Assembly (NCBI RefSeq): GCF_003815715.1
Contig: NZ_CP033922.1
Location: 2,758,001 to 2,822,000, forward strand
Reading direction: 5' to 3'
Length of the DNA stretch: 64,000 nt
DNA from: Chryseobacterium sp. G0162
Lineage (GTDB): Bacteria; Bacteroidota; Bacteroidia; Flavobacteriales; Weeksellaceae
Shown here: in pieces, positions 13,489 to 50,891 of the stretch
How the letters are laid out: each line of letters opens with the position of its first letter
Numbering within the stretch: position 1 is the stretch's first letter
The notes under the pieces: generated by a model
What the model was told of the DNA's origin: nothing
What the model saw: the letters and a program-made list of their open reading frames with translations, nothing else
Database searches by the model: none
Position numbers and translations under genes: made by a program

Positions 13489-13543
13489 GTTTCCGGAAAA
13501 TTTGATTTTGCCCATTCTGAAAAAATAGCTAACTTCGTCCCAC

Positions 13544-13622
13544 ACTTTAGGGGTGTCTGTTTTTACAGACTGAGACTTTACCCTTTGAACCTGATCTGGA
13601 TTATACCAGCGTAGGGAAAAGT
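13544..13622 (+). promoter_or_regulatory. TPP riboswitch (THI element) of the thiamine operon
   Basis: The aptamer signature is complete: GGGGTG (13550-13555), a variable P3 arm, CTGAGA (13570-13575), ACCCTTTGAACCTGATCTGG (13580-13599) and CCAGCGTAGGGA (13606-13617). P1 can form between ACTTT (13544-13548) and AAAGT (13618-13622). It precedes thiS and must sense thiamine pyrophosphate to shut off the operon. Confidence 0.95.
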
Positions 13623-13695
13623 AGATGACTTTTGCTGTACATTCTATTGTACAATAATAGCCATTCCTAAAGTATATTTAAATCATTAGGAATGG
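13617..13695 (+). promoter_or_regulatory. Expression platform of the thiamine riboswitch (start-codon hairpin)
   Basis: CCATTCCTAA (13661-13670) is exactly complementary to TTAGGAATGG (13686-13695), which contains the purine-rich AGGA and the thiS ATG (13692-13694). A second hairpin, AAAAGT/ACTTTT (13617-13622 with 13628-13633), uses the 3' strand of aptamer P1, so it competes with the TPP-bound fold. Translation control is the simplest reading. Confidence 0.65.
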
Positions 13696-48424: not shown

Positions 48425-49375
48425 ATGAACATTCAACAATTGGAGTATCTTATCGCTGTGGATAAGTATAAACATTTTGGAAAAGCGGCTCAGGCGTGCT
48501 TCATTACCCAGCCTACCTTAAGTGCCATGATACAGAAATTTGAGGATGAATTGGATGTGAAGGTTTTCGACAGAACTACACACCCGATCCGTACTACAGA
48601 TGTAGGTCTTCAGATCATCGATCAGGCGAAGGTGATTATAGAATCTGTCAATGAGCTGAAAAACAAAGCCAACCTGTTGAATAACATTTTAGGTGGAACC
48701 ATTAACCTTGGAATTATTCCAACTGTTTCTTCGTTTATCTTGCCTACTGAGATTTTCAAATTCCTAGAGACGAATCCGAAGATCCAGATGAATGTAAAGG
48801 AAATGACAACGGATAATATTATTAAAGCTTTGAAAGCAGGAGAATTGGATGCTGGAATTATTTCTACGCCATACGATACCGCTGATGAGTTTTACCAGGA
48901 TTTCTTATTCAATGAAGAGTTAATGATCTACAGTTCCAATACGGAAGCAAATAAAAAGAACTCTTACATTATTCCTGAAGAATTGAATGTAGAAAAAGTT
49001 TGGTTGCTTGAAGAAGGAAACTGTTTGAGAAATCAGTTCGAAAATATCTGCCATCTGAAAGAAAATACCCTGAAGCCTAAAAATTTAGATTTCTTAGCTT
49101 CCAATATTCAGACTTTGGTACACATGGTAGACAAAGTAGGAGGGATCAGTATTCTTCCGGAATTGGCGTTAAGTCAACTTTCTGAAGAGCAGAAAAAGAA
49201 TGTTTTCAGATTCAAGAAGCCTTTCCCTTACAGAGAAATCAGTATTATTTACTATAAGCCAACCTTTAAGCAAAAGATCATTGATGAATTGGCGCACTCT
49301 ATCAAAAATTCTTTGGAGCTTAAGTTGAATTACCACGAAAGTCCGAAAGAATTTGTAAGCATCAAGCCTCAGTAG
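48425..49375 (+). CDS. oxyR: Hydrogen peroxide-sensing LysR regulator OxyR
   Basis: A 316-residue LysR-type regulator. The N-terminal HTH (about 1-60: MNIQQLEYLIAVDKYKHFGK, TQPTLSAMIQKFEDEL) is followed by a substrate-domain. The redox pair is C200 and C209 in EEGNCLRNQFENICHL, with the same nine-residue spacing and the same LR after the first Cys as E. coli C199/C208. Divergence from katA supports the identity. In the family, disulfide formation activates catalase genes. Confidence 0.95.
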   Translation: MNIQQLEYLIAVDKYKHFGKAAQACFITQPTLSAMIQKFEDELDVKVFDRTTHPIRTTDVGLQIIDQAKVIIESVNELKNKANLLNNILGGTINLGIIPTVSSFILPTEIFKFLETNPKIQMNVKEMTTDNIIKALKAGELDAGIISTPYDTADEFYQDFLFNEELMIYSSNTEANKKNSYIIPEELNVEKVWLLEEGNCLRNQFENICHLKENTLKPKNLDFLASNIQTLVHMVDKVGGISILPELALSQLSEEQKKNVFRFKKPFPYREISIIYYKPTFKQKIIDELAHSIKNSLELKLNYHESPKEFVSIKPQ

Positions 49376-49386
49376 TCAAGAGGCTT
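49364..49386 (+). terminator. Weak hairpin at the oxyR stop codon
   Basis: AAGCCTC (49364-49370) / GAGGCTT (49380-49386) with the stop in the loop; no T-run follows. Confidence 0.3.
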
Positions 49387-49440
49387 TACAATGATACAAA
49401 TCATTAATTTAAAGAAAATTATAATTAATAAACAAAAATT

Positions 49441-49471
49441 TTGAGTATTACGAAAATAGTGCTTAAATTTG
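49441..49471 (+). promoter_or_regulatory. Promoter of the metK leader
   Basis: TTG (49441-49443), 20 bases, TAAATTTG (49464-49471): a perfect match to the Bacteroidetes consensus. Transcription would start near 49477, just before the SAM-II-like aptamer and about 134 bases before metK. Confidence 0.75.
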
Positions 49472-49485
49472 CTGACGTTTATTAA

Positions 49486-49540
49486 CGAGGAAAAATTTGA
49501 CCTGATTGCAACCTCTATAAAAATATGCTAAAACAGTATT
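49486..49540 (+). promoter_or_regulatory. SAM-II-like riboswitch upstream of metK
   Basis: The order and sequence of the SAM-II core are present: P1 GAGG (49487-49490) with CCTC (49512-49515), loop ATTTGACC (49495-49502) and TTGCAA (49506-49511), then an A-rich linker and GCTAAAA (49527-49533). CTG (49502-49504) can pair with CAG (49534-49536) as the pseudoknot helix. The reference SAM-II aptamer has the same blocks AUUUAACC, UUGCAA and GCUAAAA at like spacing. The placement before S-adenosylmethionine synthetase fits feedback control. A covariance search has not been run. Confidence 0.8.
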
Positions 49541-49590
49541 CTTTTTTCTGGGCAATTTTATTCTTATTTTTCTTCATCACTATTTTTTAA
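49525..49590 (+). CDS. 21-residue hydrophobic micro-ORF between riboswitch and metK
   Basis: The ATG (49525-49527) shares its G with the conserved GCTAAAA of the SAM-II-like aptamer. The product is MLKQYSFFWAILFLFFFITI plus a final Phe, one predicted transmembrane helix, with a stop at 49588-49590, 20 bases before metK. Lys/Gln at the N terminus and the unbroken hydrophobic run look selected rather than random, though T-rich DNA makes Phe and Ile codons by chance. No family is recognised. Confidence 0.5.
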   Translation: MLKQYSFFWAILFLFFFITIF

Positions 49591-49610
49591 TCTAAAAAAC
49601 AAAGAATAAT

Positions 49611-50891
49611 ATGTCTTATTTATTTACATCTGAATCAGTTTCAGAAGGACATCCGGATAAAATCGCCGACCAAATCTCAGATGCATTAATCGATCATTTC
49701 TTAGCATACGATAAAAGTTCAAAAGTAGCATGTGAAACTCTTGTAACAACAGGACAGGTAGTACTGGCAGGAGAAGTAAAATCTGATGCTTACCTTGATG
49801 TACAGACCATTGCCAGAGAAGTAATCAACGGAATTGGGTATACAAAAGGTGAATACATGTTCAATGGTGATTCTTGTGGAGTAATCTCTGCGATCCATGA
49901 GCAGTCTCCGGATATCAACCAGGGGGTTGACAGAGCCGTAAATGATGAGTCATTCGAAGCTAAGGCAAATGCTCAGGGTGCTGGTGATCAGGGAATGATG
50001 TTTGGGTACGCTACAAACGAGACGGCAAATTATATGCCTCTTGCTTTGGATTTAGCACACACAATCCTTAAAGAACTTTCTGCGATCAGAAGAGAAAATA
50101 AAGAGATTGCTTACTTACGTCCTGATGCAAAAAGCCAGGTAACCATTGAGTACTCTGACGATCATAAACCAATCAGAATTGATTCTATCGTAGTTTCTAC
50201 TCAGCACGATGACTTCGGAACAGAAGAAGAAATGCTGAACAAAATCCGTGAAGATATCAAGAACATCCTTGTTCCTAGAGTGGTTGCTCAGCAGACTGAG
50301 GAAATCAAAGCTCTATTCAACGATCAGATCAAATATCACATTAACCCTACAGGTAAATTTGTAATCGGTGGTCCTCACGGAGATACAGGTCTTACAGGGA
50401 GAAAAATTATTGTAGATACTTACGGTGGTAAAGGAGCTCACGGTGGAGGTGCTTTCTCTGGAAAAGATCCTTCAAAAGTAGACAGAAGTGCTGCGTATGC
50501 AACGAGACATATTGCTAAAAACCTTGTAGCAGCTGGTGTTGCTGATGAAGTTTTGGTGCAGGTTTCTTATGCGATTGGAGTGGCTGAACCTTGTGGTTTA
50601 TACATCAATACTTATGGAACGGCTAAAATTGATCTTCACGATGGAGATATCGCTAAAAAAGTGTCTACTATTTTCGATTTAAGACCTTACGCTATTGAGC
50701 AGAACTTAAAATTAAGAAACCCTATCTATCAGGAAACGGCTTCTTACGGACATATGGGTAAAGAGCATTATGTAGCTGACAAAACATTCAACAAAGGTCA
50801 TAAGAATGAGCTTACGTTGGAGGGGCTTGAGTTCTTTACTTGGGAAAAACTAGACAAAGTTGACGAAATTAAAGCCGCTTTCGGAATTTAA
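49611..50891 (+). CDS. metK: S-adenosylmethionine synthetase
   Basis: A 426-residue enzyme that makes SAM from methionine and ATP. Family blocks: [19 protein letters not shown] near the N terminus, [36 protein letters not shown] and [20 protein letters not shown]. Length is in the long range of the bacterial family. It lies behind a SAM-II-like riboswitch and a 21-codon ORF, so feedback by its own product is likely. A terminator follows. Confidence 0.97.

Follow-up and report, generated by a model that had tools for sequence, protein, structure and literature searches.

A SAM-II riboswitch ahead of metK in Chryseobacterium may use an antisense strand passed from the aptamer to the start codon

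Riboswitches of the SAM-II class, named for S-adenosylmethionine (SAM), are known from Bacteroidetes (PMC2258182), and the form with a long loop was recorded for Bacteroidetes and marine samples in 2010 (PMC2864571); here and below, each cited paper is represented by parts of its text. In the metX SAM-II and SAM-V systems, SAM directly hides the adjacent Shine-Dalgarno sequence (PMC6061858), whereas in the SAM-II riboswitch of S. meliloti metA the AUG just after the aptamer is unused and translation starts 74 nucleotides (nt) further on (PMC9373788). Shine-Dalgarno sequences are reported to be absent from members of the phylum Bacteroidota; in Flavobacterium johnsoniae, initiation is tuned by the structure of the start region and by certain upstream bases (PMC6847099). 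Because initiation in Bacteroidota does not involve Shine-Dalgarno pairing, their translational riboswitches cannot act in the usual way, by masking such a site. Here we describe the leader of metK, the methionine adenosyltransferase gene, in Chryseobacterium sp. G0162, within a window of 64,000 nt (the whole stretch of DNA analysed; NZ_CP033922.1, positions 2,758,001 to 2,822,000). We think it rather probable that its SAM-II riboswitch turns metK off at high SAM, with an antisense strand handing over between the aptamer and the start codon. All results are computational and consist of sequence comparison and predicted folds.

The riboswitch ahead of metK is, judged by its sequence, a genuine SAM-II. 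The preliminary description of this DNA had proposed a SAM-II-like aptamer, and the covariance-model search bears this out: the Rfam family RF01726 matches with an E-value of 4.9e-10 (score and cut-off in Table 1), which is the single match in the source genome at E <= 0.001. The blocks named earlier, GAGG, CCTC and GCTAAAA, are all in place. The aptamer has the long-loop form, and its P1 strands GAGG/CCTC and its core GATTGCAACC align to the model, with two positions of outer pairs flagged as non-standard. TTTGAC and GCTAAA are complementary by eye and are candidate strands of the P2 pseudoknot; the structure line of the model shows no pseudoknot. The locus runs from a LysR-type gene (most like oxyR, with a score under the NCBIfam cut-off) through promoter-like boxes and the aptamer to metK, whose ATG follows the end of GCTAAAA after 77 nt, not the 74 first given.

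Compared with the long-loop SAM-II of PMC2864571, the aptamer sequence, P1 and the Bacteroidetes host are the same, and the expression platform is not described in that paper, additional files aside. The pseudoknot aptamer and the translational OFF logic are also those of the metX SAM-II and of SAM-V, but in place of direct hiding of an adjacent site a relay over 77 nt is proposed for metK (PMC6061858). The layout has a partial precedent in S. meliloti metA, as both have a near AUG that is not the working start and a real start about 75 nt downstream; the first AUG there is in frame with the second, in contrast to the separate micro-open reading frame (micro-ORF) found here, and only here do we propose that an antisense strand reaches the start (PMC9373788, parts of the text). 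That an aptamer competes with its expression platform is the common principle of riboswitches (PMC2258182). The aptamer class, the remote-start layout and the principle of competition are therefore known, whereas the antisense platform is undescribed in the literature we found, in a search that left subscription papers and supplementary files outside its scope; the part of PMC9723704 consulted holds nothing on metK.

SAM-II exceeded the cut-off in all 118 Chryseobacterium genomes, the source genome included, and was matched in 185 of 197 genomes of a family sample and 45 of 296 of a phylum sample (41 over the cut-off). Every sample contains the source genome, and the family and phylum samples also hold other Chryseobacterium. 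Five weak extra matches (30.9-36.2 bits, under the cut-off) were not counted as a second SAM-II per genome; inspection by eye suggested ffh-like coding sequence for four, and the fifth is closely followed by a long unrelated ORF. For leader comparison, we took the loci of the 118 Chryseobacterium genomes, the family loci listed by the family search together with 40 picked to cover genera, six of the 29 genera with family matches being left out, and, from the phylum, the best 30 of the 45 genomes with a match. The resulting 209 loci gave 200 distinct leaders (117 from Chryseobacterium, 83 from others), and 199 (117 plus 82) after L177, which contains Ns, was dropped following the start-codon count. 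Kinship was handled by per-genus averages with no descent model, and neighbouring genera are not independent. In the family sample, none of the nine genomes of genus g17 (eight more than 90% complete) has a match, so the metK switch was possibly lost or replaced in this genus; the match is also absent in one genome each of g6, g8 and g16.

Without ligand, the window RNA is predicted to form a single hairpin at 49487-49575, in which three downstream pieces of the region 49535-49575 pair with pieces of the aptamer: AGTAT with ATGCT (49525-49529), GGGCAATT with the core, and ATTTTTCTTC with GAGGAAAAAT on the P1 side (Table 1). Downstream pairing with a probability above 0.5 was predicted for the 5' side of P1 in all 117 Chryseobacterium leaders and for the core in 115. 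Native P1 exceeded 0.5 in none of the 117 free folds (mean 0.00), a figure biased by the inability of the folding program to form pseudoknots. The number of pairs expected between the aptamer and the leader downstream of it exceeded the mean of eight dinucleotide shuffles in 117/117 leaders of the genus (30.0 vs 16.1), and the genus mean exceeded the shuffle mean in 31 of the 32 other genera (p = 4.7e-10). Moreover, the partners change jointly from genus to genus: the 5' half of the aptamer pairs better with its own leader than do aptamers from foreign genera in 27/33 genera (p = 5e-5), most clearly in g18 (-28.8 vs -17.0 kcal/mol) and g28 (-22.5 vs -9.7 kcal/mol). The motif YTTTAG is present behind the aptamer in 92 of 199 leaders (compared with 6% in shuffles) and covaries with the pseudoknot strand, GCTAAAA occurring with TTTTAG in 78 leaders, GCTAAAG with CTTTAG in 14 and mixed forms in none, a pattern that mainly divides two groups of genera and probably reflects few events. 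Leader comparison thus establishes, at the level of sequence, a downstream strand antisense to several aptamer segments, and the two-state fold is well supported.

The same strand is predicted to reach the metK start. As a proxy for the SAM-bound state, the leader was folded without its aptamer; 49550-49565 is then predicted to pair with 49602-49616, a stretch that includes the metK ATG. The energy needed to open the start (-15 to +3) goes from 3.1 kcal/mol in the free window leader to 7.9 kcal/mol in the bound-like one. In the comparison with shuffles it goes from 2.94 to 8.09 kcal/mol, a rise of 5.15 kcal/mol compared with 1.87 +- 1.28 in shuffles. This rise is above the shuffle mean in 112/117 leaders of the genus (3.70 vs 1.35 kcal/mol) and at least 2 kcal/mol in 97/117, and across 33 genera (at most four leaders per genus, nine for Chryseobacterium) it exceeds the shuffle mean with p = 1.3e-6. 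When start regions were swapped between genera, the genus's own start region beat the mean of the swapped ones in 18 of 33 (p = 0.011), and at most one tenth of the swapped starts did as well in g9, g12, g13, g14, g18, g22, g26, g27, g32 and g35, several of these having one sequence in common. Swaps scored by the longest Watson-Crick run were of no help, giving 0.10 or less in 9/33 genera and 0.05 or less in 5/33. Strand and start covary between some genera, as in the pairs TTTCTTTTGT/ACAAAAGAAA, TTCCTTTT/AAAAGGAA and TGTGTGTTTT/AAAACACACA. The start-occlusion step in Chryseobacterium is likely and relies on folding energies, covariation being found in some other genera.

Several results weigh against this reading. 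Both the pseudoknot and the energy of SAM binding lie outside the fold model. At the aptamer, at least a third of the individual shuffles pair as well as the real leader in g5, g23, g24 and g28, swapping the aptamer makes little difference in Chryseobacterium itself (-18.2 vs -17.5 kcal/mol), and 71 of its 117 leaders, the window's included, are without YTTTAG. RNAalifold on 40 MAFFT-aligned leaders (13 from Chryseobacterium, 27 from other genera) returned six pairs, no covariation and no long hairpin; we take the missing consensus hairpin to reflect a drifting register and an almost invariant aptamer. At the start, the occlusion helix is not general: the rise stays below 2 kcal/mol in 20/117 leaders of the genus, and the start-region swap test failed in 15/33 genera. 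In Chryseobacterium, 27% of the swapped start regions do as well, and the longest Watson-Crick run between strand and start (0.52) is no better than swaps. Swapping leaders instead favoured the genus's own in 19/33 genera, with p = 0.065 only, and swapping start types within the genus was uninformative, the own start outperforming most others in 8 of 15 types. Moreover, most of TTATTCTT (49558-49565) in the window takes no part in the antisense helices, so that the two states are only partly exclusive. The window also has a second stretch of 8 nt with complementarity to the start region, TATTCTTT, directly behind the aptamer, and 49550-49565 is therefore not the sole candidate partner of the metK start.

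Some leaders are built differently. In g34 the antisense pairing is kept and the start pairing is not clear. Leaders L199, L201, L203-L212 and L214 (g34, g37, g39) have an extra inverted repeat that separates CCTC from the pseudoknot strand; it was recognised by eye, with folding of L210 alone. In the short leaders L170 (g28) and L158 (g21), the antisense of the P1 side is compact (13 plus 4 pairs for L170), and the start pairing is again not clear.

Our proposal is that, without SAM, the downstream strand would invade the aptamer to form one long hairpin (49487-49575), which would leave the A-rich metK start open for translation. With SAM, the pseudoknot would keep its strands and set the antisense strand free, and 49550-49565 might then pair with 49602-49616 and cover the metK ATG. 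Such a mechanism would work in the absence of a Shine-Dalgarno sequence and with the micro-ORF untranslated. In its wider form, in which SAM-II in a phylum without Shine-Dalgarno sequences passes an antisense strand from the aptamer to a start some 77 nt away and the design persists in some 30 genera despite repeated rebuilding of the pairing register, we hold the proposal tentatively, at a little less than an even chance.

It could also be that the antisense strand and the two-state fold are real and that the pyrimidine-rich leader released by SAM is a target for Rho termination or messenger RNA (mRNA) decay, which we regard as unlikely on balance. The antisense pairing found in 31 of the 32 genera besides Chryseobacterium would fit such an output, and so would the 15/33 genera in which the start pairing fails the swap test, including g34, which is Flavobacterium-like, and g10, g21 and g28, whose leaders are short; where the start pairing is missing, some other output must operate. 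In Chryseobacterium, however, the start-opening contrast is strong, and no terminator-like site was found at 49360-49700, in a search that covered intrinsic terminators.

The preliminary description had placed control elsewhere, with SAM blocking translation of the micro-ORF at the aptamer edge and metK following through coupling or mRNA stability. An ATG does open a 21-codon ORF at the 3' edge of the aptamer, as had been described, and it is kept in 109/117 Chryseobacterium leaders and 66/83 leaders of other genera. In leader-peptide attenuation and control by upstream ORFs, a short ORF likewise lies between the sensor and the gene. Here, however, start, frame and length all vary, and the conservation of a short ORF that such control implies was not found. 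The ATG is replaced by AAG or GTG in 8/117 leaders of the genus and by TTG or GTG in 17/83 others, the ORF ranges from 4 to 56 codons, and its phase to metK is spread over 42, 40 and 35 of the 117 leaders, with 53 phase changes and 62 length changes on the metK tree. Reading frames behind the aptamer have a median of 21 codons in frame 0 vs 19.5 in frame 2 (n = 174); frame 0 is thus no more open, and the length of the micro-ORF is no sign of coding. The micro-ORF was therefore rejected as a conserved coding unit.

The conservation of the ATG might instead be structural. The change to AAG, placed four times by parsimony on a metK tree with some weakly supported nodes, is accompanied in 7/7 leaders by AGCT at the partner position of the downstream strand, where A pairs and T does not. 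This fits a structural rather than a coding constraint, with the caveat that leaders with T are often without the pair (of 39 such leaders in which AGC can be read, 18 have T as the partner, 13 have A, 7 have C and 1 has G). Moreover, opening the micro-start takes more energy than opening the metK start in 113/117 free folds (means 6.45 vs 3.05 kcal/mol). As it is predicted to be buried without SAM and would touch the pseudoknot with SAM, it is probably poorly accessible in both states. We judge the micro-ORF incidental and its ATG a by-product of aptamer and hairpin sequence, and control through it very improbable. What stood of the preliminary description is the SAM-II riboswitch of metK, the ATG at its edge and the remote metK start; the micro-ORF as the controlled element was not supported by the comparison of metK leaders across relatives. 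No more probable is the idea that ribosomes load at the end of the riboswitch and that SAM hides this site from 30S subunits starting downstream, as proposed for S. meliloti metA, where layout and distance are similar (74 nt, 77 here; PMC9373788), as it is countered by the lack of a Shine-Dalgarno sequence seen here by eye and reported for the phylum (PMC6847099).

Table 1. Features of the metK leader, in coordinates of the window.
Feature	Position	Strand	Basis
Putative metK promoter, TTG-N20-TAAATTTG	49441-49471	+	sequence
SAM-II (long loop) aptamer, RF01726	49481-49541	+	64.1 bits, gathering score 44
P1 5' strand GAGG; partner CCTC 49512-49515 in SAM-bound form	49487-49490	+	sequence, Rfam alignment
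TTTGAC, proposed P2 pseudoknot 5' strand	49496-49501	+	by-eye complementarity with 49527-49532; agrees with PMC6061858 (parts of the text)
Core GATTGCAACC	49504-49513	+	ligand-free fold: pairs with 49550-49557, probabilities 0.80-1.0
Micro-ORF, 21 codons, judged incidental (ATG 49525-49527)	49525-49590	+	ATG, frame and length not conserved
GCTAAAA, proposed P2 pseudoknot 3' strand	49527-49533	+	sequence, Rfam alignment
AGTAT, predicted partner of ATGCT (49525-49529) in ligand-free fold	49535-49539	+	pair probabilities 0.93-0.99
Strand predicted to pair with metK start region when aptamer is occupied	49550-49565	+	fold without aptamer
GGGCAATT, anti-core strand, predicted to pair with 49504-49513 without SAM	49550-49557	+	predicted fold
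ATTTTTCTTC, anti-P1 strand, predicted to pair with GAGGAAAAAT (49487-49496) without SAM	49566-49575	+	pair probabilities 0.99-1.0
metK start region (ATG 49611-49613), predicted occluded in SAM-bound state	49602-49616	+	opening energies, shuffles
metK, methionine adenosyltransferase	49611-50891	+	TIGR01034, 504 bits

The promoter-like sequence was found where it had been described. We take it to be a promoter of the Bacteroidota type, and the pattern TTG-N16-24-TANNTTKG is present in 107/117 Chryseobacterium leaders. In the 84 leaders of the genus with a spacer of 20 nt, 17 of the 20 positions of the spacer AGTATTANNAAAATAGTNCT are conserved at 0.99-1.0, and the boxed pattern occurs once genome-wide with up to three mismatches allowed. 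As this conservation goes beyond the need of a plain promoter, the spacer is a candidate operator and may serve a regulator of metK. Elsewhere in the window, a full-length thiamine pyrophosphate (TPP) riboswitch was found at 13539-13634 (79.5 bits, cut-off 54.3).

To conclude, an ATG at an aptamer edge can be structural however well it is conserved, which should serve as a warning for similar loci. The some 200 natural leader variants with predicted partners can be used for mutational tests. Together, these leaders suggest how a translational riboswitch could act without a Shine-Dalgarno sequence in a large and common group of bacteria.
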